From contig JAIMAL010000026.1 of the NCBI GenBank assembly GCA_023511995.1, positions 1 to 32,358 on the forward strand: 32,358 nucleotides of DNA. Direction: 5' to 3'. Source of the stretch: Burkholderiales bacterium (lineage in GTDB: Bacteria; Pseudomonadota; Gammaproteobacteria; Burkholderiales; Thiobacteraceae). Positions 1 to 19,579 of the stretch are shown one piece after another. Within the stretch, counting starts at the first letter, position 1. Each line of letters starts with the position of its first letter. The position numbers and the translations under genes are program-made. Under the pieces are notes generated by a model. The model did not search any database, was not told the origin of the DNA, and saw only the letters and a list, made by a program, of their open reading frames with translations.

Positions 1-1
1 T

Positions 2-76
2 GATGGGGCAAAATGCTCGCACATTCTGACCCACCTACCCGTTAATCAAAATTGCACTTCAAACTTGAATCCGCGA
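2..76 (+). repeat. Left copy of 75-bp terminal inverted repeat
   Basis: This stretch is the exact reverse complement of 32284-32358 over 75 bases, with identity stopping at 76/77 on this side and 32284/32283 on the other. It contains no readable transposase. The simplest reading is the outer end of a multicopy insertion element lying in opposite orientation at both window edges, with the rest of each copy outside the window. An assembly break at such a repeat would give the same picture. I could not place it in an IS family with confidence. Confidence 0.85.
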
Positions 77-114
77 TCTGCTTTTTTAGGCGGGGCAGAG
101 AGTTATCATTTAGA
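77..114 (+). promoter_or_regulatory. Truncated CRISPR leader remnant
   Basis: This AT-richer stretch lies directly before the first repeat and ends in TTATCATTTAGA. That resembles the leader-repeat junction of the E. coli type I-E array as I remember it (TTATGTTTAGA). Only 38 bp separate the terminal repeat from repeat 1. A full I-E leader with promoter and IHF site is longer, so the promoter-bearing part has probably been replaced by the element at the window edge. Confidence 0.5.
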
Positions 115-3100
115 GCCTTCCCCGCGCACGCGGGGATCGACCGTGCGCACGTCACCGGCGCACGGCGTCGCGCTGGCCTTCCCCGCGCACGCGGGGATCG
201 ACCCGCAAGGTGCCGGACATATACAGCCGCGTAGGCGCCTTCCCCGCGCACGCGGGGATCGACCGCTGGTGCCGCTTGGCATGCCCATACCGCAGCGGCC
301 TTCCCCGCGCACGCGGGGATCGACCTCCGCGTTGACCTCCAGCACGCGGGCGGCCAGAGCCTTCCCCGCGCACGCGGGGATCGACCCGGCGGCCATCCGG
401 CGCGTTCGTTGGCCGGGACGCCTTCCCCGCGCACGCGGGGATCGACCTGCAGGCGCCTACCCGGCGCTGGAGCATGAGACGCCTTCCCCGCGCACGCGGG
501 GATCGACCTCTCCCCCGGCCTGCGGGACTGGGCGCTGGCCTGCCTTCCCCGCGCACGCGGGGATCGACCTCTCAAGAAAACTGGCGGCCTGACCGCCAAC
601 GGGCCTTCCCCGCGCACGCGGGGATCGACCCATCCCTACAGGATCATCAGACGAGAAAGTGGCGCCTTCCCCGCGCACGCGGGGATCGACCCCACCCACA
701 AGCGCGGCGAGTTAAACAAGACACGCCTTCCCCGCGCACGCGGGGATCGACCTGCCCGGCCCTCGCAAGATGGCCGGGCTACAACGCCTTCCCCGCGCAC
801 GCGGGGATCGACCCCCGAAGATCGCAGGCGACGTGGCCGGGACGAAGCCTTCCCCGCGCACGCGGGGATCGACCTGGCTGGGGCTGCCGCTGCCGGGTGG
901 TGGGCGCGCCTTCCCCGCGCACGCGGGGATCGACCCCCGGCGCGATCGTCAACGCGAGCTACGTGAGCGCCTTCCCCGCGCACGCGGGGATCGACCCCAG
1001 GCATATAGCTGGTCGATGGCTCGCTGCTGGCCTTCCCCGCGCACGCGGGGATCGACCTCCGGCCCACATCGTGCGCGAGTGCCTCACCAAGCCTTCCCCG
1101 CGCACGCGGGGATCGACCCCAGCAGCGTGAGCGCTGGCACGGTCACCAACGGCCTTCCCCGCGCACGCGGGGATCGACCCACCACACGGCCTTGATGAGT
1201 CGGGCCGGTGATGCCTTCCCCGCGCACGCGGGGATCGACCCGCGTGCGGCTGTTGCCACGCGCCATCGTTGAAGCCTTCCCCGCGCACGCGGGGATCGAC
1301 CCGGGGATGTGGGCATCATCAAGGATATTGATGAGCCTTCCCCGCGCACGCGGGGATCGACCTGATGTGCTTTGCGCTTTTTAGCGCACGGTGTTGCCTT
1401 CCCCGCGCACGCGGGGATCGACCCCGGACGACCAGCTACGCGAACAGGATCAAGATGCCTTCCCCGCGCACGCGGGGATCGACCTGCCGAGAAGCCGAAG
1501 GCAGAGGCTAGCCCGGTGCCTTCCCCGCGCACGCGGGGATCGACCTGCGTGGCGGCCGATCCCAGGAGGCAGCCCGCCGCCTTCCCCGCGCACGCGGGGA
1601 TCGACCCGATGCCGCCGACTTGCCCAGCGGTGCGTGCTCGCCTTCCCCGCGCACGCGGGGATCGACCCCCTTACGGCGACGGCCTACGCATCCGGCTGAA
1701 GCCTTCCCCGCGCACGCGGGGATCGACCGGCGTCACCCAGCGCGCCCTGATGTGCGACAGCGCCTTCCCCGCGCACGCGGGGATCGACCCGTCGTCGGCA
1801 CCACGGGCGCCATCCCGGCGGCGCCTTCCCCGCGCACGCGGGGATCGACCTTTCTGAGCCGTGTCCGCGCTCTGGTTGAGCATGCCTTCCCCGCGCACGC
1901 GGGGATCGACCCCTGAGGCAGGGGAGCATCCGGCCGCTCGAAGAGCCTTCCCCGCGCACGCGGGGATCGACCCGGTGTTACTAGCACCGTTACCAGCCTC
2001 AACCCGCCTTCCCCGCGCACGCGGGGATCGACCCCAAGCGCCTGGTCTAGCATTCGACAGCCCCGTGCCTTCCCCGCGCACGCGGGGATCGACCTCTATC
2101 AAGCACCTCAGGCTTGAACTGCGCCACGCCTTCCCCGCGCACGCGGGGATCGACCCGCCCCCTGTTCGACTCCGAAAAGCGCAGCGAAGCCTTCCCCGCG
2201 CACGCGGGGATCGACCTGGTAAAAGCGCACCATGACCACGATCCATACTGCCTTCCCCGCGCACGCGGGGATCGACCCCCGCTGATTTCGCTGTTCGGGG
2301 CCGGGCCTGGGCCTTCCCCGCGCACGCGGGGATCGACCTTGTTCATGCTCGTGAGTGGAATCATCTTGCACGCCTTCCCCGCGCACGCGGGGATCGACCC
2401 GCCGTGTTGGCAGCCCGCGCAGAAAACATCGGGCCTTCCCCGCGCACGCGGGGATCGACCTCTGCTTGACGCGCAGCGGGGTGACGCTCAAGGGCCTTCC
2501 CCGCGCACGCGGGGATCGACCACCGCTGATGATTGCCAACAGCGATCAGTACGTGCCTTCCCCGCGCACGCGGGGATCGACCCCAGTCGCGCCCGGAGAA
2601 ACTCGACATCAGCCAGCCTTCCCCGCGCACGCGGGGATCGACCCCCCCGTGATTCTGGCCGCCGACGCCACCGACAGCCTTCCCCGCGCACGCGGGGATC
2701 GACCTCCGGCATCGACGAGGGCGGCGACCCACTCGTGGCCTTCCCCGCGCACGCGGGGATCGACCGTGAGGCTCACCGTGGACTTAGGCACCGTCTCCGC
2801 CTTCCCCGCGCACGCGGGGATCGACCCCAAATATTCCGCTTCGCTCATATCGCATCCCGGCCTTCCCCGCGCACGCGGGGATCGACCCAAACTCTACGAG
2901 GGCACGGTCGCGGTCAAGCGGCCTTCCCCGCGCACGCGGGGATCGACCCACGAACATCATCAGTGCGGCAGGGGGACACTTGCCTTCCCCGCGCACGCGG
3001 GGATCGACCCTTCCGTCTTCAGGCCGACGACATCAACCTTGAGCCTTCCCCGCGCACGCGGGGATCGACCCTCGCAGCGCGGCAAGTCCAGCACGCGACC

Positions 3101-3742
3101 TGTGCCTTCCCCGCGCACGCGGGGATCGACCCGCCATCACCATCTCCGCCATCACCAAGGCCAAGCCTTCCCCGCGCACGCGGGGATCGACCCCTCACCG
3201 CCCTGGTGTGGCTCAAGGATCAGCCGCCTTCCCCGCGCACGCGGGGATCGACCTCAGCCTTCATTTCCCAGAGCCCGATTCGCCACGCCTTCCCCGCGCA
3301 CGCGGGGTCGACCCTGCTCGATGCGGTCAGGCATGTCCACGCTCACACGCCTTCCCCGCGCACGCGGGGATCGACCCGACACCCTCTCGCTCCAGGAAAT
3401 CGCCCATGCGCCTTCCCCGCGCACGCGGGGATCGACCCGCGTAGGCGTTGCCAAGACAAAGCGAGGTCTCGCCTTCCCCGCGCACGCGGGGATCGACCCC
3501 AGCAGCCGGCGTCCTTCCGATCCAGTCGCAGGCCTTCCCCGCGCACGCGGGGATCGACCCGTCAGCACCAACACCTTCGAGCTGGAGGGGGTGCCTTCCC
3601 CGCGCACGCGGGGATCGACCCTTGACGCCACCACCAGGAGACTCCGCCATGACGCCTTCCCCGCGCACGCGGGGATCGACCTGCTCCTTGCGCGCTAGCG
3701 CATCGGCACGACTGGCCTTCCCCGCGCACGCGGGGATCGACC
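115..3742 (+). CRISPR. Type I-E-like CRISPR array, 60 repeats, 59 spacers
   Basis: The 28-nt repeat starts GCCTTCCCCGCG, ends GGGGATCGACC and holds an inner palindrome (CCCCGCG/CGCGGGG). It matches the type I-E family in sense orientation, so the crRNA would be read from the plus strand. Repeat starts run at exactly 61-nt steps from 115 to 3287 (52 intervals of 33-nt spacers). One 62-nt step follows, then 61-nt steps again to the last repeat at 3715. Nearly all repeats look identical by eye; repeat 53 lacks one base. No cas gene lies in the window, so it is either an orphan array or its cas genes lie beyond the left edge. All spacers looked unique, and none visibly matches DNA elsewhere in the window. 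Confidence 0.98.
3287..3313 (+). repeat. Degenerate CRISPR repeat 53 with 35-nt spacer
   Basis: This repeat reads GGGGTCGACC instead of GGGGATCGACC, so it is 27 nt long. The spacer after it (3314-3348) is 35 nt, the only spacer not 33 nt long in the main array. Both irregularities sit at the same repeat-spacer junction. Confidence 0.9.
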
Positions 3743-3752
3743 TGTGGTGGAG

Positions 3753-3896
3753 ATGGCCTGGACGGACGCGCGGAATTTTCTCACGGCGGCGCGGACGATG
3801 CGCCGTCAGCGCCTGCTGGACATGGCGGTGGCCGTACGAGTGGCGCAGGCCGAGAAAAAGGACTGGGAGCGGTGGGTGAAGGAGGTCAGCGGATGA
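3753..3896 (+). CDS. Small phage tail-region-like protein (47 aa)
   Basis: The ORF begins 10 bp after the last regular CRISPR repeat. It is highly charged and helical in appearance, with Arg/Lys-rich and Trp-containing stretches such as DARNFLTAARTMRRQ and a tail KDWERWVKEVSG. Two in-frame GTG codons at 3744 and 3747 are alternative starts. It is followed on the same strand by a tape-measure-like start at 4102, an order typical of phage tail modules where very short ORFs precede the tape measure gene. Part of it recurs in degenerate form near 6690, beside the second immunity-like copy. Its function is unknown. Phage origin is inferred from context and style, not from a named family. Confidence 0.5.
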   Translation: MAWTDARNFLTAARTMRRQRLLDMAVAVRVAQAEKKDWERWVKEVSG

Positions 3897-4092
3897 TGAT
3901 TTCGGTGTCGGGCGCGGCCAGCGCGTCGATCCACGCCACCAGCGCGCCGTATCCCGTCCAGCCGAGCAGCAGACCGACGGCGAAGACGCGCAGCTCGCCG
4001 CGCCAGTCATGGCCGCGCAGGCGCGCAACGAGCGACGGCAGGATGGCGCAGACGATGACGTATAGGGCGGCAATGCCAAGCACAGCGGTCAT
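3886..4092 (-). CDS. Superinfection-immunity-like small membrane protein (68 aa)
   Basis: This 68-residue protein has an N-terminal hydrophobic helix (about residues 4-24), a short basic loop (ARLRGHDWRGEL) and a second helix with the sequence LLLGWTGYGALVAWIDAL. The LLGW-T-x-x-G-x-x-x-A pattern is what I associate with the superinfection immunity (Imm-like) family of two-helix membrane proteins, which block DNA entry by related phages. It lies on the minus strand between the small tail ORF (overlapping its 3' end by 11 bp) and the tape-measure-like start. No strong ribosome binding site is visible. A diverged inverted copy lies at 6433-6678. The family call is moderate; a generic phage membrane protein is the alternative. 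Confidence 0.5.
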   Translation of the reverse strand: MTAVLGIAALYVIVCAILPSLVARLRGHDWRGELRVFAVGLLLGWTGYGALVAWIDALAAPDTEIIIR

Positions 4093-4101
4093 GTGAGCAT
4101 C

Positions 4102-4314
4102 ATGGCGGATAGCAAGCTCGAGATCAAGATCACCGCCGACAACCGCCAGGCAGTGGCGGCCCTGGGCGAGTCGGCGCGCGCCATGGGGGTGGTCGCGCAG
4201 AAGGTCGAAGTGGCGAAGGTCAAGATTGGCGACATGGCCAAGGCATTCGCGCTTGGTCAGGCGGCGTTCCGCCTTCCCCGCGCACGCGGGGATCGACCTG
4301 GCCAGATTCCTTGA
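4102..4314 (+). pseudogene. Tape-measure-like protein N-terminus, cut by a CRISPR repeat
   Basis: The first ~56 codons (MADSKLEIKITADNRQ, then a helix with GESARAMGVVAQKV) look like the N-terminus of a phage tail tape measure protein, which normally runs for hundreds of residues. The frame enters the CRISPR-type repeat at 4271 and stops at 4312-4314 after translating it as LPRARGDRP. The body of the gene is absent downstream. A GTG at 4093 is an alternative start. This is a truncated phage gene joined to a CRISPR repeat. The identity rests on N-terminal style only. Confidence 0.5.
4271..4298 (+). CRISPR. Isolated full-length CRISPR repeat
   Basis: This is a perfect 28-nt copy of the array repeat in the same orientation, 528 bp after the last array repeat. 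It has phage-like DNA on both sides rather than a spacer-repeat unit. Confidence 0.95.
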
Positions 4315-4374
4315 CATCTCCCGGTTGTCCAGAGCCAGCTTGATGCCGATCGTCAAATTGCCTACAGTGGCTAC

Positions 4375-4494
4375 ATGCGCACCCTTGCCATCATGTTCTT
4401 CGCCGCCGCCGCGCCCTTCGCCGCGCTGGGCGGATCATTCGCTGGCGCGGCGGCCTTCGTCGCCATCGCGCTCGCGCTCATTTTTGCTCGCTGA
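4375..4494 (+). CDS. Small hydrophobic protein (39 aa)
   Basis: The ORF encodes a 39-residue protein that is almost entirely hydrophobic: MRTLAIMFFAAAAPF, then a Gly-Ser-Gly hinge and a second Ala/Ile/Leu-rich helix ending in FAR. Such tiny one- or two-helix proteins are common in phage lysis or early regions, but no family is recognisable. A ribosome binding site is not obvious. It lies between a CRISPR repeat and a chimeric ORF, so it could be a fragment. Confidence 0.4.
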   Translation: MRTLAIMFFAAAAPFAALGGSFAGAAAFVAIALALIFAR

Positions 4495-4502
4495 CCTACT
4501 TC

Positions 4503-4769
4503 TTCCGCTATGCGATTGTCAGGCAGACCGAGGACGAGCTTGTCCGGGGGCCTGGGCGGGACATCCTGCTGTCGATCCGGCAAGGCAGGCTGTATGCGGC
4601 GCTTCACCGCGAGGCGGCGGGCGGCCGGCTGGTCGCGGCGGTTGATGTGGAGCGTCTGCGGCTGGCCACACTGCACGTCAAGGCGTTAGGCCGGGCGGCC
4701 AGCTTGCGCGATGAAGCCGTGGTGGAACAGGGACGCGAGGCGAGAGGAATTCGGCGATGGTTCGGTTGA
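4503..4769 (+). pseudogene. Chimeric open frame with duplicated segment
   Basis: The frame is open with no good start codon. It begins FRYAIVRQTEDEL, which repeats an internal segment of the 5494-5877 protein (FRYAIARQTEDEL). At DNA level about 41 of 42 bases match between 4503-4543 and 5755-5795. It then diverges into an unrelated charged sequence (LLSIRQGRLYAALHREA and onward to RRWFG) and stops at 4767-4769, overlapping the start of the next gene. The jump from shared to unique sequence indicates recombination between related cassettes. I do not recognise the downstream part. Confidence 0.45.
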
Positions 4770-5113
4770 AGATCGATGTGCGGCGCCCGCTGGCCTACGG
4801 GGCGCTTTCCTGTTTTGACGGGATCGTCGATGGCCGCGAGGCCTGGGAGTTCGACATGGATGAAACACTCGCGCTGCGATCGATGTTCGAGTTTGCGCGC
4901 GAGATGGGCTTGCTCGATGCCGCGGCCATCGGCGAGCTCGACCGGATCGATGCCTTCTGGCGCGCGCACCCGCAAGCCTTCGATGCGGCCTTTGCCCATG
5001 AGCACGCGGCCGACAAGGCGCGGGTGCTGGAGGGCTTGGTCGAAGACGAGAACGGCGATCCCGTGCCGCCGCCCGCTTCCCACTGGTGGTGGCGGCCATC
5101 GGGCCGGTGGTAG
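4757..5113 (+). CDS. Trp-tail protein A (118 aa), unknown function
   Basis: The ATG at 4757 has a GAGAGGA ribosome binding site 8 bp upstream. The protein is acidic and soluble, 118 aa, with a helix-rich middle (AIGELDRIDAFWRAHPQAFDAAF) and a C-terminus ending HWWWRPSGRW. The block WRAHPxAFDAxF and the tail HWWWRPS-x-RW are shared with the protein at 5494-5877, so the two are diverged paralogs. A 49-bp sequence covering the tail and 3' flank is nearly identical in both. No known domain is recognised. The setting between CRISPR repeats and beside phage-like genes suggests phage origin. Confidence 0.6.
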   Translation: MVRLKIDVRRPLAYGALSCFDGIVDGREAWEFDMDETLALRSMFEFAREMGLLDAAAIGELDRIDAFWRAHPQAFDAAFAHEHAADKARVLEGLVEDENGDPVPPPASHWWWRPSGRW

Positions 5114-5129
5114 TCAGTCCTGATGCGCT
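5081..5129 (+). repeat. Shared 3' boundary sequence, copy 1
   Basis: This 49-bp sequence spans the last codons of the first Trp-tail gene and its 3' flank. It has the core GTGGTAGTCAGTCCTGA and differs from 5845-5893 at only two positions. On the minus strand it also spells RIRTDYHR-P-DGRHHQ, matching the C-terminus of the zinc-finger gene that overlaps copy 3. Confidence 0.85.
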
Positions 5130-5159
5130 TGATTTGGAGCATTCAGTGAGGAGGTCATT

Positions 5160-5432
5160 ATGGCGCGCGATCTGGAAGCGGATCGGTTAGTGTTCTGGCA
5201 AACCCCGGAAGAGGAAGGGGTCGGCGGCGCAGAGATCGCCTCCTGGACGATCAATCTCAACCTGGATTATGAGGCCGGTGAGATTACGCCGGAAGAGCTG
5301 CAGGCGTTGCGCGAGATTTTGTCGAAAAGCCCGTGGAAGCATGAGCCGCTCCATGTCGAATGGTGTCGCGAGGTACGCAGAGAAGAGGGATATGGCCGCG
5401 AGCGCTTCTGGTGGTGGCCGGAGACGTGGTAG
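5160..5432 (+). CDS. Trp-tail protein B (90 aa), unknown function
   Basis: The start at 5160 is supported by a strong GAGGAGGT ribosome binding site. The 90-aa acidic protein has a short strand-like region (ASWTINLNLDYEAGEI), then a helix (TPEELQALREILSK), and ends with RFWWWPETW. Only the Trp-rich tail and the 3' flank (TGGTAGTCAGTCCTGA) are shared with the neighbouring A and C proteins; the rest is different. Sharing the 3' end while differing in the body is unusual for simple tandem duplication. No known family is recognised. Confidence 0.6.
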   Translation: MARDLEADRLVFWQTPEEEGVGGAEIASWTINLNLDYEAGEITPEELQALREILSKSPWKHEPLHVEWCREVRREEGYGRERFWWWPETW

Positions 5433-5448
5433 TCAGTCCTGAGGCGCT
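5409..5448 (+). repeat. Shared 3' boundary sequence, copy 2
   Basis: This copy at the end of the second Trp-tail gene is shorter and more diverged. It has TGGTGGTGGC near the stop, then GTGGTAGTCAGTCCTGA and GCGCT, with six bases missing relative to the other two copies. Confidence 0.8.
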
Positions 5449-5493
5449 TCCCATGCAGCCCGGTGGGCGCAAGATCAGCAAAGGGTGGCTGTC

Positions 5494-5877
5494 ATGGTGA
5501 AAACCGTCGGCGATTTCAATGAAGCGGTGGCATTCATGCTTGCGCGCCTTTCATGGTATGACATGGTGCGCGAGGAGGAGATCCCCTGGTGGGAGGAGGC
5601 TGGCTTTGCCGTGGTCGATGAGGAGGTGCTGCGCGCCCGCTCGGCGCTGGAGCTTCTCAAGGATGCAGGCTACACGCTGCCCGAGGATGCGCTGGCGATG
5701 ATGGCGGCGGCCGATGCGCAGTGGCGCGCCCACCCAGCGGCGTTCGACGCGATGTTCCGCTATGCGATTGCCAGGCAGACCGAGGACGAGCTCGCGGGCT
5801 GGGTCGTGCTGGAGGATGGTTCGACGCCGAGGATACCGCCCGCTCACTGGTGGTGGCGGCCATCGAGCCGGTGGTAG
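5494..5877 (+). CDS. Trp-tail protein C (127 aa), unknown function
   Basis: The ATG at 5494 sits 8 bp after an AAAGGG motif; a GTG at 5485 is the alternative start. The 127-aa acidic protein contains WYDMVREEEIPWWEEAGF, a helical region (SALELLKDAGYTLPEDAL), the WRAHPAAFDAMF block shared with protein A, FRYAIARQTEDEL shared with the chimera at 4503, and the tail HWWWRPSSRW. Its 3' end overlaps the 3' end of the zinc-finger gene on the opposite strand by 34 bp. No recognised domain. With A and B it forms a small paralogous cluster in one direction. Confidence 0.6.
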   Translation: MVKTVGDFNEAVAFMLARLSWYDMVREEEIPWWEEAGFAVVDEEVLRARSALELLKDAGYTLPEDALAMMAAADAQWRAHPAAFDAMFRYAIARQTEDELAGWVVLEDGSTPRIPPAHWWWRPSSRW

Positions 5878-6064
5878 TCAGTCCTGATTCGCTCCCAGTC
5901 GTCGCGGCACTCAGGCGAGCACCAGCGTCGGCTATCGGGAAGCGGTTCGCCGCACCAGAGACACACGCCCGCGGGAGAGGGCCCCACGGGCTTTTTTTTT
6001 GCGCCAGCGCGGCGCCGAGCAGCGGTTTCGCCAGATCGTTGGCGCGGTCGGCTTGATCGGCCAT
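5844..6064 (-). pseudogene. Phage C4 zinc-finger protein with a frameshift at a 9-A tract
   Basis: The start at 6064 gives MADQADRANDLAKPLLGAAL, a typical opening for small phage zinc-finger proteins of TraR/DksA-like style. The zinc motif CLWCGEPLPDSRRWCSPEC (C-x2-C, then C-x3-C) followed by RDDWER lies in the other frame. The two halves join across a run of nine A on the coding strand (T run at 5992-6000). One more A, or a -1 ribosomal slip on the A run, would give a continuous ~73-aa protein. It could be a true pseudogene, a homopolymer sequencing error or programmed frameshifting. It appears to be the second gene of a minus-strand pair with the fragment ending at 6108. Confidence 0.6.
5845..5893 (+). 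repeat. Shared 3' boundary sequence, copy 3
   Basis: This near-identical partner of 5081-5129 encodes the tail of protein C on the plus strand and the last residues of the zinc-finger protein on the minus strand. Here both readings end in real stop codons, so this may be the ancestral arrangement. Confidence 0.85.
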
Positions 6065-6107
6065 GGGTCACTTCGTCCCACTAGCGGAGAGCGTCGATGC
6101 GGGCGCG

Positions 6108-6326
6108 TCAGGCTTCGTAGAGGCTGGCGGCGTCGAGGATCCACCGGGCGATGTCGGCGTCGGTGGTGTCTCCCTCACCCCCGGCCCCTCTCCCCGAGGG
6201 AGAGGGGAAGATGGAGGCGGCCCCTCTCCCGGAGGGAGAGGGGAGGATGGGATCGGCGGCAGGGGCTGCAATAGCGCCGCCGGTGGTCGAGGCCAGCTTG
6301 ATGCCGCAAGCGGGGGCGTCGTGGAG
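6108..6326 (-). pseudogene. C-terminal fragment of an unknown phage-like protein, interrupted by REP sequence
   Basis: The minus-strand frame ends with TTDADIARWILDAASLYEA and a stop at 6108, 43 bp before the zinc-finger gene start. That fits an upstream partner in a phage operon. Its middle is translated REP-type palindrome (PSPSGRGA twice) and its upstream part (GIKLASTTGGAIAAPAADP) runs into the CRISPR repeat at 6330. It therefore lacks a natural N-terminus. The family is unknown. Confidence 0.35.
6172..6245. repeat. Doublet of REP-like palindromes
   Basis: Two tandem palindromic units of the kind CCCCTCTCCC...GGGAGAGGGG sit here, the first preceded by CCCTCACCCCCGG. This is the widespread GAGAGGGG-type dispersed palindrome of proteobacterial genomes. 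Further copies lie inside the mod and res genes and in degraded form near 13663. Confidence 0.85.
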
Positions 6327-6329
6327 CAG

Positions 6330-6415
6330 CCCTTCCCCGCGCACGCGGGGATCGACCCTCGCGCCACAAAACTAGGAAGCAAAGACGCCAGCCTTCCCCG
6401 CGCCGGGGATCGACC
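6330..6415 (+). CRISPR. Terminal two-repeat mini-array
   Basis: A repeat at 6330-6357 (first base C instead of G) is followed by a 33-nt spacer and then a 25-nt repeat at 6391-6415 that has lost three bases in its centre. The 61-nt period equals that of the main array. Degenerate repeats are typical of the old, leader-distal end of an array, so these look like the original tail of the array at 115-3742. Confidence 0.9.
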
Positions 6416-6432: not shown

Positions 6433-6678
6433 AGGCGCGCCGGGAAATGCCTTTATAAGGCTCCCGCGGATGCGTTACTGAATATTGCCGCCGGATACGT
6501 CCTCTTCTGCGCCATCCTGCCGGCGGCCGTCGCGCGCCTGGGCGGCCATGACTGGCGTGGTGAGCTGCACGTCTTCGCTATCGGTCTGCTACTCGGCTGG
6601 ATGGAATACGGCGCGCTGTGGGCGTGGATCGACGCGCTCGCCAAAGCGGACGCCGACATTGGCGTCGTCATCCGCTGA
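6433..6678 (+). pseudogene. Truncated second copy of the immunity-like membrane protein
   Basis: The frame lacks an ATG or GTG start and opens just after the degenerate CRISPR repeat. From AAGYVLFCAILPAAVARLGG onward it parallels the 3886-4092 protein, including GHDWRGEL, GLLLGWMEYGALWAWIDALA and an -VIR end. Only the first residues are missing. The two copies face opposite directions, forming an imperfect inverted pair about 2.4 kb apart. The similarity continues past the stop codon into a remnant of the small tail ORF (GAGAAAAAG...CAGCGGATGA). Confidence 0.6.
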
Positions 6679-6717
6679 TCCTCTTCCCCACCGCTTTCGG
6701 TTCTTTTTCTCCGTCTG

Positions 6718-6835
6718 CCATGAAAATCGTCCCTGTCACAGCCAAGGGCCGCTGCCAGCCGCGCTAGCGAATCGGTCGCGGGTGCGGCCTTGCCACGCTC
6801 GATCATGGATAGCAGTGGTGCCCGGAGCGCCTGCC
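6718..6835 (-). pseudogene. XRE-type repressor helix-turn-helix fragment
   Basis: The minus-strand frame reads LSMIERGKAAPATDSLARLA followed by AALGCDRDDF. This is the second half of a typical XRE helix-turn-helix domain (recognition-helix end, then the S-L-x-R-L-A-x-A-L segment). There is no N-terminus: the fragment begins exactly at the stop codon of the permease gene at 6836. It has no stop of its own and runs on antisense through the immunity-like copy. It is a phage repressor relic marking the junction between phage-like and chromosomal DNA. Confidence 0.5.
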
Positions 6836-9301
6836 TCAGCCCCGCAGCACCGCCAGGGGCGGGGTGTCAAGCACGCGGCGGGTGGCGAGGCTGCCGGTGA
6901 TGATCATGCCCAGACTGCCGGCGACGATGCCCGCAAGCCAAAGGGCGGGCGATAGCTGCAGGGGCAGGTCGAAGAAGCGCGTGGCAAGGAGTGAGCCGAC
7001 CGCGGCCGCACCCCCTGCACCCAACAGGCCGGCCAGGGCGCCGATGACGGCGAATTCCATTGCCTGGGCGAGGAGGAGCTGACGCCGCCGCGCGCCCAGC
7101 GCGCGCATCACCGCCGCTTCATAGACCCTTTCATCCCGCGTGGCGAGCACGGCCGCATAGAGCACGACAAGCCCCGCGAGCAGGGTGAAAACAAACACGA
7201 ATTCCACCGTCTGCGCCACCCGCTCCATGATGGCGCGCACCTCCCGGAGGATTGCCGCAACATCGATCACGGTGATGTTGGGGTAGGCACGCACCAGGGC
7301 ATCGAGCACCGCCTCGCCTCCCACGGGCAGGTGAAAACTGGTGATATAGCTCGTCGGCTGATCGCGCAGCATCTGCGGCGTGCCGATGACGAAGAAATTG
7401 ACCCGCATGGAATCCCAGTCCACATGGCGCAGGCTGGTGACGGGTGCTTCAATGAGCTGGCCTGCGACATCGAAGCGCAGACGGTCGCCCAGGCGAATGC
7501 CCAGGCGCTGGGCGATGCCCTCTTCCACGGACCACTGGGGTGGAGCCGTTTCCCGCCCCCAGAAACGTCCCGCCACCAGCCGGTTGTCGGCACGCGGCGC
7601 GCGCGCCCAGGAGAGATTGAATTCCCGCTCCACGAGGCGGCGGCTGCGCTCATCTTCGTAATCCCGCGCGGAGACGGGGCGGTCATTGATGGCCATCAAC
7701 CGCCCGCGCACCATGGGGTGAAACTCGGGAGCGGCGAGACCGGCGCGCAGGAGGAAAGCGCGCACCGGCTCAACCTGGTCAGGCTGCACGTTGATGAGAA
7801 AGCGGTTGGGGGCATCGGGGGGCAGGCGTTTTTGCCAGCTCGCCAGCAGATCGCCGCGCACGAGGGTGAGCAGGAAGAGTGCCATGAGGCCCAGGGAATA
7901 GGCCATGATGGAAAGGCGGCTTGTCTGCTGGCGGCGCTGAATCTGGGTCAAGCCGTAGAAGACCACGCCCCGCGCCTTGCGACGCAGCGGCCCCAGTGAC
8001 CAGACCAGGGCCAGGGCCGCAAGCCACGCTGCAATCAGCACGCCGGCAAGACCTGCGGCTACGTGGAAGCCCAGGCGCAGTTCGCCGGCCTTACTCACAA
8101 AAAGCGCCGCCAGGACCGCCGCCCCCAGGAGGGACCCGGCAAGGCCAAGCCCCGTGGGCGGCGCGAGTTCCCGCCGGATCACGCGCAGGGTGGGCACCTG
8201 GCTTAACCGCGCGAGGGGAAGGGCGCCGAAGGCCAGGACCAACACCAGGCTGATGCCAATCCCCTCCAAGAGGGGCCAGCTGCCGGGCGGCGGCAGGTCC
8301 ATCTGGAGCTGGGCGATGGCAAGCCGTACCAAGGCTTCCTGGGCGATCACGCCGATGAGACCGCCGCCCACGCCCCCCAACACTCCCAGCAGGGCGAACT
8401 GGATCACGTAGAGGCCGAAGATGCGCCGCTGGCCCGCGCCCAGGCAGCGCATCACCGCGCAGCCATCGAGATGGCGCTCGACGAAGCGCCGCGTGGCGAG
8501 GGCCACGGCCACCCCGGCCAGCACCGCGGCCACCAGAGCGGAAAGCCCCAGGTAGCGCTGCGCCCGCTCCAGGGCGGTGCGGATTTCCGGACGCGCATCG
8601 GCCACGCCCTCCAGCCGCTGGCCGCGTTCCAGCAAGGCCGCCATGGCCCGCCGCCAGGCGTCCACCGCTTGCGGCGAGCCCGCCACCAGGAGCCGGTAGA
8701 TCACGCGACTGCCTTCCGTGACGAGGCCCGTGGCGGCAAGATCATCTTCATGGAGCATGAGTCGGGGGGCGATGCTGAAAAAATCCGCCGCCCGGTCGGG
8801 CTCCCGCTCCAGCACCGCCGCCACCACGAATTGCCGCGCCCCCACACCCACGCGCCCGCCCACCTGAAGATCCAGTTGACGCAACAGCCGGCCATCCACC
8901 CAGACGGTACCGGGCTTTGGGCCGTGCGCCACTTCGCCTTCCACGCCCGCGTTCAGCCTCAGCCTGCCCCGCAGCGGATAGCCGCTGCTCACCGCCTTGA
9001 TTTCGGCAAGCTGGATGCGATCGCCGGCCACCACCATGCTGGGGAAGGTGGCGGTCGTGGCCACCCGCAACCCCAGGGCAAGGGCGCGCCGGGCGGCCTC
9101 CGGCGAGGGCGGATGGTCGCTCACCAGTACGGCATCGGCGGCGATCAGCTCGTTGGCCTGACGGGCCAGCGCCCGTTGGACCCGGTCGGTGAAAAAACTC
9201 ACGGTCGTCACGGCGGCCACCGCCACCACCAGGGCGGCCAGCAGAACGCGGATTTCCCCCGCCCGCCATTCCCGCCACAACAGCCGCAGGGCAAGTCTCA
9301 T
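6836..9301 (-). CDS. ybbP: FtsX-family ABC permease, YbbP-like (821 aa)
   Basis: This large inner-membrane permease has a first membrane helix at residues ~17-37 and a long periplasmic domain. A first helix cluster follows at ~250-345, then middle helices at ~390-450, a second extracytoplasmic domain, and a C-terminal three-helix FtsX block ending VLDTPPLAVLRG. The RCLGAGQRRIF motif after the second helix is typical of FtsX proteins, which couple ATP hydrolysis to work on periplasmic or envelope substrates. The ATG at 9301 overlaps the ATPase stop as ATGA, which fixes the start. With the ATPase and divergent tesA the layout matches the E. coli tesA-ybbA-ybbP locus. The substrate is unknown. 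The stop codon directly abuts phage-derived DNA. Confidence 0.88.
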   Translation of the reverse strand: MRLALRLLWREWRAGEIRVLLAALVVAVAAVTTVSFFTDRVQRALARQANELIAADAVLVSDHPPSPEAARRALALGLRVATTATFPSMVVAGDRIQLAEIKAVSSGYPLRGRLRLNAGVEGEVAHGPKPGTVWVDGRLLRQLDLQVGGRVGVGARQFVVAAVLEREPDRAADFFSIAPRLMLHEDDLAATGLVTEGSRVIYRLLVAGSPQAVDAWRRAMAALLERGQRLEGVADARPEIRTALERAQRYLGLSALVAAVLAGVAVALATRRFVERHLDGCAVMRCLGAGQRRIFGLYVIQFALLGVLGGVGGGLIGVIAQEALVRLAIAQLQMDLPPPGSWPLLEGIGISLVLVLAFGALPLARLSQVPTLRVIRRELAPPTGLGLAGSLLGAAVLAALFVSKAGELRLGFHVAAGLAGVLIAAWLAALALVWSLGPLRRKARGVVFYGLTQIQRRQQTSRLSIMAYSLGLMALFLLTLVRGDLLASWQKRLPPDAPNRFLINVQPDQVEPVRAFLLRAGLAAPEFHPMVRGRLMAINDRPVSARDYEDERSRRLVEREFNLSWARAPRADNRLVAGRFWGRETAPPQWSVEEGIAQRLGIRLGDRLRFDVAGQLIEAPVTSLRHVDWDSMRVNFFVIGTPQMLRDQPTSYITSFHLPVGGEAVLDALVRAYPNITVIDVAAILREVRAIMERVAQTVEFVFVFTLLAGLVVLYAAVLATRDERVYEAAVMRALGARRRQLLLAQAMEFAVIGALAGLLGAGGAAAVGSLLATRFFDLPLQLSPALWLAGIVAGSLGMIITGSLATRRVLDTPPLAVLRG

Positions 9302-9975
9302 GGGTTCCCCCCCAGCCTTCCCCCCTGAAGCAGCAGGCGCCGCTGGCAACGTCCCGCCAAGGCGGGATCGTGGGTGACGAGGATCAGGGTCGTGCCCTGC
9401 TCCCGGTTGAGATCGAAGAGAAGATCGATCACCCGGGCGCCGGTGGTCTCATCCAGGTTGCCGGTGGGTTCATCGGCAAAGAGAATGGCCGGCCGGGTGA
9501 CGAAGGCGCGTGCCACGGCCACCCGCTGCTGCTCACCGCCGGAAAGCTGCCGGGGATAGTGATTGAGCCGCTCGCGGAGCCCCACCCGCTCCAGAATATC
9601 CCGGGCGCGCTGCCGGGCATCGGGCACCTTTGTGAGTTCGAGCGGCAGCATGACGTTCTCCCAGGCGGTGAGTGCCGGCAGAAGGTGAAACGACTGGAAG
9701 ACGAAGCCCGCCAGACGGCCCCGCAGGGCGGCGCGCGCATCCTCATCGAGGGCGAAGATCTCCTGCCCGTTCCAGTACACCTGGCCGCGGGTGGGAACAT
9801 CGAGGCCCGCAAGCAACCCCAACAGGGTGGACTTGCCCGAGCCCGAGGCGCCGAGAATGGCGAGGGACTCGCCGGCTTTGACTTCCAGAAAGACTTCGTT
9901 GAGGATGGCAAGCCGCCCGCTCTCCAGCGGGACCTCCTTGCCAAGGCCAATGGTGCGGATGATGGGATCTGTCAT
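9298..9975 (-). CDS. ybbA: ABC transporter ATP-binding protein, YbbA/LolD-like (225 aa)
   Basis: This cytoplasmic ATPase has a Walker A at residues 42-50 (GASGSGKST), a Q-loop (FVFQSFHLLP), a signature LSGGEQQ at 144-150, a Walker B ILFADEPTG ending near 172, and an H-loop (VTHD). It belongs to the MacB/LolD-type group that pairs with FtsX permeases. Its start codon at 9975-9973 shares two bases with the tesA start on the opposite strand, so the promoters of both genes must lie inside the other coding region. It is translationally coupled to the permease by an ATGA overlap. Confidence 0.92.
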   Translation of the reverse strand: MTDPIIRTIGLGKEVPLESGRLAILNEVFLEVKAGESLAILGASGSGKSTLLGLLAGLDVPTRGQVYWNGQEIFALDEDARAALRGRLAGFVFQSFHLLPALTAWENVMLPLELTKVPDARQRARDILERVGLRERLNHYPRQLSGGEQQRVAVARAFVTRPAILFADEPTGNLDETTGARVIDLLFDLNREQGTTLILVTHDPALAGRCQRRLLLQGGRLGGNP

Positions 9976-13727: not shown

Positions 13728-16559
13728 TCAGGTAAGGTTTGCCGCCAGCACGTCCCTGATTTCACCGGGATGATGGGCGACGGCCCAATGCCACTGCCCA
13801 AATCCCCCCTGCGCCGTCACCGCTTGCGTCCATTCGTCAAGATAGCGATGCTTCACGGCATCTTCCTCGCTTTCCCTGCCCTTTGTTTCCAGTACGAGCA
13901 TGGTCCCGTTGGCAAGGCGCACCAGAAAATCCGGCCGATACTTGCGTATCACGCCGCGATAGACATACAGGATCTCGAACCCCAGGTGATCATTTTTCGC
14001 CCATGCGGCCACGGATTCGCTATTGTCGAGCACAAAGGCCGCCGATGCCTCCCAGGTGCTGTCGTAAACGCACACGTTAATGTGCGACTTCTTGGTACGC
14101 TCGCAGGGCTTGCCGGTATACCAGGTGCGCGTCTCGGCCGTGGATCGGATAGGGTGGTCGCGGTCGAAGACCGGTGTGAGTCTCTCCGTATTCTCCTGCC
14201 GTACGGCCTCCCAGACGTGCTGGACGACTCGCGACATGTTGAGGGTGATGAGTAGCCGCCGGCGCAGTTCGTCCTGGTAGAAGAGGGGCGGCGAGATGGC
14301 GATCCGGTCGGAGCGGATAAATTGCTCGACGATCCGCACCAATTGCGCCAGCAAGACTTCGCGGCTCCCTTGCCAGGTGTGTTTCATCTGGTCGAAGACA
14401 TCCCGCGCGGTCTCGAAAATGATGCGCTGGGTGCGGAATTCCCGCGCCAGCCGTTCCAGTTCGATGCGCTCGATCTTTGTCACATCCGGCTTACCCGCGA
14501 TGATCGGCGCGAGCTCCGCTACCTGAGGCGTTTGGGAGGCGTCCAGCACCAGCGGACGCACCGCCGCCCAATCCAGCGCCAGCCTGGGTTGAAACACGCG
14601 CTCAATGCGCACGACGTTTGGCCAGCGAATCTCGTACTGCGCTTTGGCTGGATCGGGCTCGACGGCAGTCTTCGGCTGCGGCGGCGGAGGCGGGCCGCCC
14701 TCCCCTTCTTCATGAGGCAGGAAGGTGAAAGGCACGCCGAAGATGTTGACGTACTCGGGCTCGAGCAGGCCCGTCTCCTGGTTTAGATCGTAGGACGTGC
14801 GCCGCAGGCCTCGGCCTACCACCTGCTCGCACAGAAGCTGCGACGTGAAGGCCCGCAGCCCCATGATGTGCGTGACCGTCTTGGCATCCCACCCTTCGGA
14901 GAGCATGCCGACCGAAATGACATTTTGAATCTTTTCGCCGGGCTGTCCGGCCTTGCCCACCGTGTCCACGGTCTGACGCAGCAGTTCCGCCTGCTCGGTC
15001 TTGGTCAATTGACGTTCGGGTGGGGCTGTCTGCTCTGCTTCTGCTTCGTCATCAGGCTCCCTCTCCCCTTGGGAGAGGGTTGGGGTGAGGGCTTCTTCCT
15101 GCGCTTCGGCCTGGTCCAGCACTTTGGAGTCGATGTGCAGGATGCGCTCCGGGTCGCACAGCTCGTCAATGTGGATGCGCCTAGTATCAAACGCGTGCTT
15201 GATCCGCGCCGCCGTTTCCGTCCGGTTGCATACCGTGATCATCACCGGTGGGGTGCGCAGCCCGGCGGCCTGCCACGCCCTCAACGTCTCGCGCCAGTCG
15301 TAGCCCAACAAGTAGTAGGCATTCAGCACCAGATCGGGCAGCGGCTCATCGGGGTTGGCCCGCCGGTTCAGGTCGTCCTTCACATCCGGGTCGTTATAGA
15401 TGTGGTACAGGCGTGACTTGTAGGTTTGGGCGTTTGGCACGGCGTCGTCGCGGACCACCACCCGCGGGGTCTTCACCAAACCCGATTCGATGGCATCGTT
15501 CAAGCCAAAGTCGCTGACGATCCAGCCGAAGAGCGCCTCCTCGCTGCTTCGCTTACCCGAAGGCGTGAAAGGCGTGGCGGTAAAGTCATAGCAGGTGAGG
15601 ATGCCCCGTGTCCGCTGTAGTCGGTCCAGGCCGCCGATCCACACCGTCGCCTCCTCGGCACTGTCCTTGAGGTCGCGCTGACGAAGGTACTTGCCCTCGG
15701 CCTCCCAGTTCACGCGCCAAGCATGATGCGCCTCATCGTTGATCACAAGGAGATTGCGCGCATTGGCCATCTCTCCCAGCACCTCGCGGGTATAGGCTTC
15801 GTCGCTCTTCGCGCCCCGCTTGTCCACGGTCTTGCGCTTTTTCAGTTGCGCCTCGGATTCCCAGGCCAGGGCATGCCAGTTGCGCACCAGCACCTTTCCC
15901 TGACGCAGTTTGTCGAGCAGGCCTGATGGAACAATGTCGAACGCTTCGTAGTAATTGCCTTCGGCCGCGGGTTCCAGCACGGCCAGCCGCTTCTTCACCG
16001 TCAGTCCTGGGGCGATCACCAGCACGTTCTTGGAAAAGCGGGCATCCTGGGGATTTGCCACCTTGTTGAGGATGTGCCAGGCGATGGTCATGGCCATGAC
16101 GATGGTCTTGCCCGTACCGGTCGCCATCTTGCAGCATCGGCGAAGAAAATCCCCACCGTCCCCCGGAATCTCGATGCCCACGCGCTCCGCCGCCGGCGCC
16201 TCAATAAGCCAGATGAGCGTTTCCACCGCCTCCAACTGGCAGAAGAAAAACCGCCGTCGGTCGAATTCCTCCGGATCACGCCAATGCGCCAGCAGCCGCT
16301 TGGTGATGCTGGTGACCCCCGGATACCCGGCCTCGCGCCAGGCCTTGACCCGCGGGCGGATCTGGTTGACCAAGGGGATTTCGATAAAAATGCCCGGGTC
16401 ATCAAACGATTTCGATCCCGGCGTTGCCACCACGTACCCCGCCGGACGGCGGCCTTCAACGAGGTCGAAGGTGCGCGTCTCCCGGTCGTAGCGCCAATAC
16501 CGCTGCGGTTCCTCGTAGGGCGAGTTGATGATGAGGCGGTCGATGGTGGTGCGCGCCAT
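13728..16559 (-). CDS. res: Type III-like restriction endonuclease subunit, DEAD/DEAH helicase-nuclease (943 aa)
   Basis: This is a superfamily 2 helicase with Walker A MATGTGKT (~146-152), Walker B VINDEAHHAW, motif III TATPF, motif V/VI region SVGMLSEGWD followed by QVVGRGLRR, and a C-terminal PD-(D/E)xK nuclease core YRPDFLV...VLETKGRE near residue 895. It would translocate along and cut foreign DNA lacking Mod methylation. The opening IDRLIINSPYEEPQRYW recalls the group annotated as BPTD_3080-type restriction enzymes (from memory). The ATG at 16559 overlaps the mod stop (TGATG) after a GGAG site, so the pair is translationally coupled. An in-frame palindrome at 15057-15092 adds ALTPTLSQGERE to a linker. 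Confidence 0.92.
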   Translation of the reverse strand: MARTTIDRLIINSPYEEPQRYWRYDRETRTFDLVEGRRPAGYVVATPGSKSFDDPGIFIEIPLVNQIRPRVKAWREAGYPGVTSITKRLLAHWRDPEEFDRRRFFFCQLEAVETLIWLIEAPAAERVGIEIPGDGGDFLRRCCKMATGTGKTIVMAMTIAWHILNKVANPQDARFSKNVLVIAPGLTVKKRLAVLEPAAEGNYYEAFDIVPSGLLDKLRQGKVLVRNWHALAWESEAQLKKRKTVDKRGAKSDEAYTREVLGEMANARNLLVINDEAHHAWRVNWEAEGKYLRQRDLKDSAEEATVWIGGLDRLQRTRGILTCYDFTATPFTPSGKRSSEEALFGWIVSDFGLNDAIESGLVKTPRVVVRDDAVPNAQTYKSRLYHIYNDPDVKDDLNRRANPDEPLPDLVLNAYYLLGYDWRETLRAWQAAGLRTPPVMITVCNRTETAARIKHAFDTRRIHIDELCDPERILHIDSKVLDQAEAQEEALTPTLSQGEREPDDEAEAEQTAPPERQLTKTEQAELLRQTVDTVGKAGQPGEKIQNVISVGMLSEGWDAKTVTHIMGLRAFTSQLLCEQVVGRGLRRTSYDLNQETGLLEPEYVNIFGVPFTFLPHEEGEGGPPPPPQPKTAVEPDPAKAQYEIRWPNVVRIERVFQPRLALDWAAVRPLVLDASQTPQVAELAPIIAGKPDVTKIERIELERLAREFRTQRIIFETARDVFDQMKHTWQGSREVLLAQLVRIVEQFIRSDRIAISPPLFYQDELRRRLLITLNMSRVVQHVWEAVRQENTERLTPVFDRDHPIRSTAETRTWYTGKPCERTKKSHINVCVYDSTWEASAAFVLDNSESVAAWAKNDHLGFEILYVYRGVIRKYRPDFLVRLANGTMLVLETKGRESEEDAVKHRYLDEWTQAVTAQGGFGQWHWAVAHHPGEIRDVLAANLT
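15057..15092. repeat. REP-like palindrome inside res
   Basis: The unit CCCTCTCCCC-TT-GGGAGAGGG followed by TTGGGGTGAGGG lies within the res coding sequence. It keeps the frame and encodes the insert ALTPTLSQGERE between the helicase lobes, next to an acidic linker. Confidence 0.85.
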
Positions 16560-19489: not shown

Positions 19490-19522
19490 GGCGTCCTGTC
19501 CCACTTTGCTTGCCGGCACAGC

Positions 19523-19579
19523 CCTGATCACACCACCTCGACCTTCGCCTCACCCGCTTCGAGGGTGCCGATTTCGGCG
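19523..19579. repeat. selD 3' end (direct repeat, intact-gene copy)
   Basis: This is the functional copy of the 57-bp repeat, containing the last 17 codons and stop of selD. With 13337-13393 it brackets the mod-res cassette (about 6.1 kb). Confidence 0.92.

Follow-up and report, generated by a model that had tools for sequence, protein, structure and literature searches.

How does phage DNA come to lie between the repeats of a clustered regularly interspaced short palindromic repeats (CRISPR) array? The question is raised by contig JAIMAL010000026.1 (C26) of a Burkholderiales bacterium (assembly GCA_023511995.1), which we analysed in full as a window of 32,358 bp out of a 2.51-Mb genome assembled in 44 contigs. 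A first reading made from the letters only (the sequence-only reading) had described, after repeat 60 (R60), 528 bp of phage-like DNA, a perfect repeat (R61), 2031 bp more of phage-like DNA and a two-repeat tail (R62-R63), and our recount of 63 repeats agreed with both the coordinates and the order. Sixty of the 63 repeats are identical 28-mers at a period of 61 bp. Among the 62 inter-repeat intervals, 59 measure 33 nt and one, beside a repeat that is 1 nt shorter, measures 35 nt; the remaining two measure 528 nt and 2030 or 2031 nt, the last value depending on the start chosen for R62. The explanation towards which we lean is a fusion, by way of the repeat, of the array end with an accessory locus in which a phage targeted by the array carries repeats; an exchange of DNA between the array and the virus it targets is probable. 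The host side of the evidence comes from one assembly and the phage side from a few metagenome contigs.

The array and the 528-bp piece (segment 1) consist of the following features.

1-114, plus strand: leader side of the array, at the start of the contig.
115-3742, plus strand: regular type I-E CRISPR array, repeats 1-60 (R60 at 3715-3742), recognised by the repeat layout and by cas3-cas8e-cas11e-cas7e-cas5e-cas6e-cas1e in locus L084.
3743-3894, plus strand: left part of segment 1, a fragment of a phage open reading frame (ORF) overlapping a tail assembly chaperone gene; by DNA alignments its start coincides with the repeat edge, and four phage contigs have a GA site there.
3886-4092, minus strand: small membrane protein of the superinfection-immunity type (PF14373, phrog_1039, hydropathy).
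4102-4270, plus strand: right part of segment 1, codons 1-56 for a tape-measure protein, truncated precisely by R61 (95% amino-acid identity to L035).
4271-4298, plus strand: R61, perfect, 528 bp and 2031 bp from the neighbouring repeats (repeat layout).

Segment 1 was identified by comparison with viral contigs. Scanning with its tape-measure fragment returned nine loci, the best at 95% amino-acid identity, and four of the nine (L035, L036, L037 and L038) align with the 528 bp at the DNA level from edge to edge, with internal gaps; the part belonging to the chaperone-overlapping ORF shares 82% to 91% DNA identity with the phage contigs. The full-length homologue in another phage contig (L059, 4831-7692) matches PF20155 and tape-measure PHROGs. 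The protein encoded at 3886-4092 was matched by phrog_1039 (E 3e-5) and by PF14373 (E 5e-5, 23.5 bits, which is under the family cut-off of 27.9). Alignment with four viral contigs, an immunity-type gene and a tape-measure 5' end thus bear out the phage character that the sequence-only reading had given to this piece.

The same phages are targets of the array. We compared the 60 spacers of normal length with eight loci (L030, L036, L058-L061, L077 and L079; 134 kb), which had been picked by their similarity to the insert, the repeat or one of the small 'HWWW' proteins of the 2031-bp piece (described below), and not to the spacers. Results showed that 12 of the 60 spacers (3, 4, 7, 13, 16, 17, 34, 43, 46, 48, 54 and 58), spread over the whole array, match this phage set at ≤7 mismatches in 32 nt, with perfect matches of spacer 34 to L077 (33/33) and of spacer 43 to L036. 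At the same cut-off no decoy matched (permuted 0/300, reversed 0/60, complemented 0/60), and chance matches appear at 9 mismatches (13/300 permuted). The dinucleotide flanking the 12 matched targets is AA in 10 and GA in 2. A control array with an identical 28-nt repeat, from a proteobacterial metagenome-assembled genome (L067, DBS1-1.bin103), gave no match to these loci with any of 30 spacers at ≤8 mismatches. The whole array, compared with a phage collection, gave weak matches. Judged by its spacers, the array targets the phage group whose DNA sits in the insert, as the sequence-only reading had suspected.

A phage of this group also carries the host repeat. When a viral collection of 2.9 million contigs was searched, one contig contained an exact 27-mer of the repeat and two contained a degenerate 26-mer, L077 being found by both. 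L077 is a 15.7-kb contig, the whole of record IMGVR_UViG_3300002925_000094, whose proteins were scanned against PHROGs and, for some, Pfam. It encodes a portal, a terminase, an endolysin, Rz, MuF and a transposition protein, and its Mu-like marks are phrog_296 'DNA transposition protein' (E 1e-76) and PF04233 (MuF; E 2e-7). Three I-E repeats, differing from the host repeat by 1, 0 and 2 bases, are laid out as repeat, 536 bp, repeat, 33-nt spacer, repeat. One of them is a solitary host-type repeat (9741-9768) with its nearest repeats 264 and 536 bp off, a mini-array at 9204-9116 holds one spacer between repeats, and the repeats sit among small ORFs and gene fragments. L077 also has two repeats of a second type, which we take to be I-C-like and which likewise show the spacing of solitary repeats; R61 of the window stands at such a spacing too (no repeat within 100 bp), but it sits in a host array. 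The mini-array spacer found no target at ≤9 mismatches in the 13 loci compared, and the longest match of the host leader (window 1-114) to L077 is 10 nt, with none near the repeats.

The DNA beside the L077 repeats is that of the window insert. Starting 6 bp past the last I-E repeat, L077 is 95% identical to window 4613-5130 and then continues with stretches of 85% and 86% up to window 6332. L077 and L079 are collinear to either side of the repeats, and in the 15.5 kb of L079 compared (of 29.5 kb) no such repeat was found. A second contig, L080 (3.9 kb), consists mostly of tail DNA of the Mu-like phage group (83% to L059) and runs directly into at least six I-C-like repeats (3800-3915), with a phage-repeat edge exact to 1 nt. 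Junctions of phage DNA and repeats therefore recur in the group with two kinds of repeat, I-E and I-C-like in L077 and I-C-like in L080. L083 has one repeat, in unrelated DNA. In the phage collection, the repeat was partly matched by I-E-like sequences of Streptomyces phages and of others. One 23-bp stretch, 96% identical to the I-E repeat, is shared by six phages of Streptomyces (Bogota, UNTPL, Crosby, Microdon, Intolerant and Stuff), and these are candidate repeat mimics.

The 2031-bp piece, the tail repeats and the flank beyond them read as follows.

4299-4356, minus strand: tape-measure-like 5' end cut by R61 (translation by eye only; no match here in the scan of the longer ORF).
4375-4494, plus strand: small membrane protein of 39 aa, divergent from the preceding fragment (hydropathy 2.21).
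4557-4756, plus strand: MuF head-morphogenesis gene, 3' end, with the last stretch assigned by reading (78% DNA identity of 4557-4636 to L062 9737-9816).
4757-5113, plus strand: HWWW small protein 1 (97% amino-acid identity in phage L077).
5160-5432, plus strand: HWWW small protein 2, a paralogue (sequence comparison).
5485-5877, plus strand: HWWW small protein 3, a paralogue (two good relatives, at 43%, and eight weak ones in 300 genomes of the order).
5883-6065, minus strand: small Cys4 zinc-finger-like phage protein (phage similarity).
6063-6329, minus strand: 3' part of an Rz/Rz1 spanin pseudogene with internal stops and an inserted palindromic repeat, cut by R62 (the homologous L077 ORF is an Rz-like spanin; Rz1 by reading).
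6330-6357, plus strand: R62, with an altered 5' edge (G to C, or one extra C).
6358-6390, plus strand: spacer 62, 33 nt (no target at ≤9 mismatches in the 13 loci compared).
6391-6415, plus strand: R63, with a 3-nt deletion (repeat layout).
6484-6718, plus strand: second gene of the superinfection-immunity type, inverted relative to the copy in segment 1 and with no clean start codon (82% DNA identity to segment 1).

The three HWWW paralogues stand in tandem (4757-5877), and copies 1 and 3 end in HWWWRPS.RW. No Pfam or PHROG family was found for them at useful E-values, and HWWW protein 3 had no confirmed relative in the viral contigs searched. This family, with its Trp-rich C-terminus, adjoins MuF and Rz in phages and prophages. 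The stretch of L062 that resembles the window MuF end (9737-9816) overlaps the end of the L062 MuF match (8534-9784). Parts of the 2031-bp piece match a Mu-like prophage region of a same-genus genome, G001 (85%, 79% and 78%), and the phages G303 and G304, so that the claim that this piece is phage-like, too, was upheld by comparison with Mu-like phages and prophage regions; the piece is a mosaic. Its right edge is imprecise, since phage similarity extends 3 nt into R62. The 2587-bp insert taken together had no DNA match in the phage collection. In two plasmid records the best places fall in the common palindromic repeat at its right end. That C-rich palindromic repeat (window 6170-6250) lies inside the Rz/Rz1 pseudogene and has many copies in relatives.

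In both the window and L077 a repeat is followed by a cassette that includes a small membrane gene, then by a second repeat, the MuF end, HWWW, the zinc finger and Rz/Rz1. A strong membrane ORF (hydropathy ≥2.2, a threshold set after the segments had been seen) occurs in four of the six repeat-adjacent segments; among 1000 stretches of 500 bp drawn at random from the phage set, 28 have one. The two segments that lack one are the stretch after R63, where there is no clean start codon, and the stretch of L077 between the I-C and I-E repeats. The L077 fragments beside membrane genes and window 4299-4356 can be read as tape-measure starts; one of these three gave a weak match to phrog_28 (E 0.004) and one gave none. 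The window tape-measure fragment and the two from L077 had no protein match in the phage collection (0/3), and an L077 tape-measure fragment was found in 0/300 genomes of the order, in a search where an empty result proves nothing.

These observations suggest how the locus may have formed. The region from 3743 to ~6720 would derive from the accessory (superinfection-immunity) locus of a transposable Mu-like phage targeted by the array, and phages of the group can carry the host's own repeat in that locus, as solitary repeats and a one-spacer mini-array. Recombination in the 28-bp repeat, at R60 or R61, would have joined the host array to the phage DNA, and the right side would later have been trimmed imprecisely at R62, within Rz/Rz1. 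R61, and R62-R63 with it, would have arrived with the phage, the crossover would lie in the repeat, and the membrane genes that were retained would matter. A repeat fusion of this kind would account for the arrangement in both the window and L077, with repeats embedded in phage DNA on both sides and adjoined by the same genes. Since L077 has the repeat, the repeats flanking the insert may in part stem from the phage.

Recombination of phage DNA into the array was one of two possibilities that the sequence-only reading had raised, and with phage DNA lying between repeats it is still the best one; that the phage L077 would itself bear the repeat had not been foreseen. The degenerate last repeats had been taken as proof that the array once reached 6415, and this part calls for revision. 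Phage-type DNA lies on both sides of R62-R63 (Rz/Rz1 before, the immunity-type gene at 6484-6718 after, and then host DNA), as it does around the L077 mini-array, so R62, its spacer and R63 need not be an old end of the host array. The reading had also named a case that would speak against it, namely repeats that belong to a prophage with no link to the array. This case is half realised: L077 fits the description, but the repeats of the window are continuous with the 60-repeat host array, and the finding therefore stands in changed form. Placement of immunity-type genes under array transcription had been proposed as well; going by orientation, this could apply to the membrane gene of the 2031-bp piece and the three HWWW genes, which are sense, but not to the immunity gene of the 528-bp piece, which is antisense. 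The inserted membrane genes may exclude related phages, and the phage-borne repeats may act as decoys, in the manner of RNA anti-CRISPRs, or as integration sites.

The exact edges of the 528-bp piece bring in other explanations. On the right, the similarity reaches exactly up to R61 in all four phage contigs. On the left, two contigs are similar from base 2 past R60 onwards, and in the other two the local alignment enters R60 by 7 bases, a run over a shared TCGA that we take for chance. Phage DNA carries on past both edges, and the base pair before the left edge is GA in all four contigs. Such edges are what would be seen if Cas1-Cas2, or a half-site reaction, had inserted long phage fragments as giant spacers at what were then leader-end positions, with working exclusion genes being kept and phages later taking up the cassettes. 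GA, which also flanks two of the 12 spacer targets, would be a protospacer adjacent motif (PAM) present at one edge only, that of the leader side. The I-C-like fragment of L077 begins at TTC in both relatives looked at, TTC being, we presume, the I-C PAM, and the exact edge of L080 points the same way. The first base is C or T in 57 of the 62 intervals, and both long inserts of the window begin with T. A PAM-like site at the leader-side edges, and the lack of one at a spacer's length ahead of the two exact right edges, fit the capture of long fragments.

Other observations count against giant spacers, and the leader-side edges open to testing numbered only two. The 2031-bp piece has an imprecise end at R62 and combines several loci in a mosaic, and the same kind of cassette lies inside phage L077, where we found no sequence like the host leader. 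Known type I-E adaptation inserts ~33 bp (PMC9699676). We regard giant spacers as a fairly unlikely explanation of the window, although such capture could be how the cassettes arose in the first place.

Alternatively, a phage free of repeats may have recombined with a normal spacer against it and so drawn DNA of the phage into the array, the opposite of array DNA being taken up by phages. Spacers have been reported to recombine with their targets in phages (PMC8616872), the array is rich in spacers against this phage group, and the 528-bp piece opens with 33 nt that resemble a spacer, bases 2-33 having 2 mismatches to L036 and a GA flank. The product of such an exchange should show a PAM at the left edge and another one spacer length before the right edge. 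GA was found at the left edge, but at the expected place before the right edge all four phage contigs have GG. Likewise no TTC occurs 33-38 nt before the L080 edge or at the same place in L059, and the L077 repeats beside the same genes would be left unexplained. We think this route distinctly improbable.

Several points also weigh against fusion with a repeat-bearing phage locus, the explanation that we prefer. No phage was found with the exact order of repeat, 528 bp, repeat and 2031 bp; the L077 repeat stands at a different point, beside the equivalent of window 4613, and borders a different cassette. The phage locus must itself be mosaic, because it is the tail locus of L036 and L061 that the 528-bp piece resembles. 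None of the phages compared has a close homologue of window 4299-4556. Where homologues are known, the leader-side edges fall at PAM-like sites (GA 4/4; TTC 2/2), which recombination between repeats does not predict by itself. Where R61 came from cannot be read from the sequence, as it is identical to the host repeats, and the case for a repeat living in phages depends on one metagenome contig. A further reading would make the repeats the edges of a shared pool of protein-coding immunity cassettes, in which fragments with exclusion genes were captured from a leader-side PAM and then moved between arrays and phages. We hold this to be unlikely; if it were true, an array could store protein-based as well as RNA-guided immunity.

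An assembly artefact, with prophage and array contigs joined at the repeat, would be conceivable in a 44-contig assembly with a 28-bp repeat. At ≤2 mismatches, however, the repeat core occurs 61 times in the genome, always on C26, and outside its place the insert recurs only as the near copy at 6484-6718 and as two stretches of 28-36 bp. Insert and repeat therefore lack a second genomic context to be mis-joined with, and junctions of the same type occur in the independent metagenome contigs L077 and L080. An artefact is very improbable.

Exchange between phages and arrays has precedents. In staphylococci, phage-CRISPR recombination reportedly takes place at a spacer and its target, with CRISPR DNA moving out (Varble 2019); phage and array swap DNA there as well, but in the window it is phage DNA that moved in, and repeats account for the edges better than spacers do. 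Whole prophages are said to be integrated in CRISPR loci of Streptococcus pyogenes (Varble 2021), which likewise puts phage DNA within a CRISPR locus, whereas the window holds internal fragments of phage genes. Solitary phage repeats are described as RNA anti-CRISPRs (Racr) in passages of PMC10651486, where host-type repeats of several subtypes stand alone in a phage genome. The repeats found here differ from Racr units in that they adjoin phage genes and are continuous with a host array, and in the one-spacer mini-array that L077 has in addition; they are known from sequence alone. Arrays of one or two spacers are known from archaeal viruses, where one spacer likewise lies between host-type repeats (PMC6858448); here the carrier is a bacterial Mu-like phage, no host-like leader was found, and repeats of two CRISPR types share one locus.

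Recombination between phages and arrays has been reported, and recombination by way of solitary repeats envisaged, in PMC8616872; passages there and in PMC10651486 propose that solitary phage repeats allow recombination into host arrays. The locus described here is a natural candidate for such repeat-mediated entry, and both kinds of partner are in hand, a host array with an end of phage DNA and a targeted phage with the host repeat beside the same genes. The proposed recombination of phage DNA into arrays thereby becomes testable. It is also suggested that phage exclusion genes can reside in CRISPR arrays and that one phage locus can carry repeats of two CRISPR types. A literature search, covering in part only the top-ranked results, found no report of phage gene cassettes between host-array repeats together with a phage bearing the same repeat beside the same genes, and a search for papers on spacers of unusual length in this setting returned none.

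In the rest of the genome, cas3, cas8e, cas11e, cas7e, cas5e, cas6e and cas1e stand at the edge of contig C6 (PADLOC models on locus L084); Cas8e was found with PADLOC and missed by the Pfam Cse1 model by itself. In G001, the similarity to C6 (from C6 8609 outward, beyond cas3) stops 228 bp from the start of the similarity to the window (7004), and this narrow gap indicates that C6 and C26 are very probably neighbours. The system has the characters of type I-E, with a cas operon that synteny places near the array, a repeat within the 28-29-nt range, ~33-nt spacers and an AA-type PAM. The island from cas3 to about window 7004 is absent at the matching site of G001, and the repeat was not found in that genome at ≤3 mismatches. 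The first host gene past the island is the following.

6836-9349, minus strand: host FtsX-type permease (similarity to G001 begins at 7004).

At the other end, the break between cas2 and the leader (window 1-60 and L084 1-80) resembles two insertion-sequence ends, which by their look we take to be IS30-like, and a mobile element may separate cas2 from the array. Further along the contig, window 13728-19531 carries a restriction-modification-like pair (a ResIII helicase and an N6/N4 methylase).

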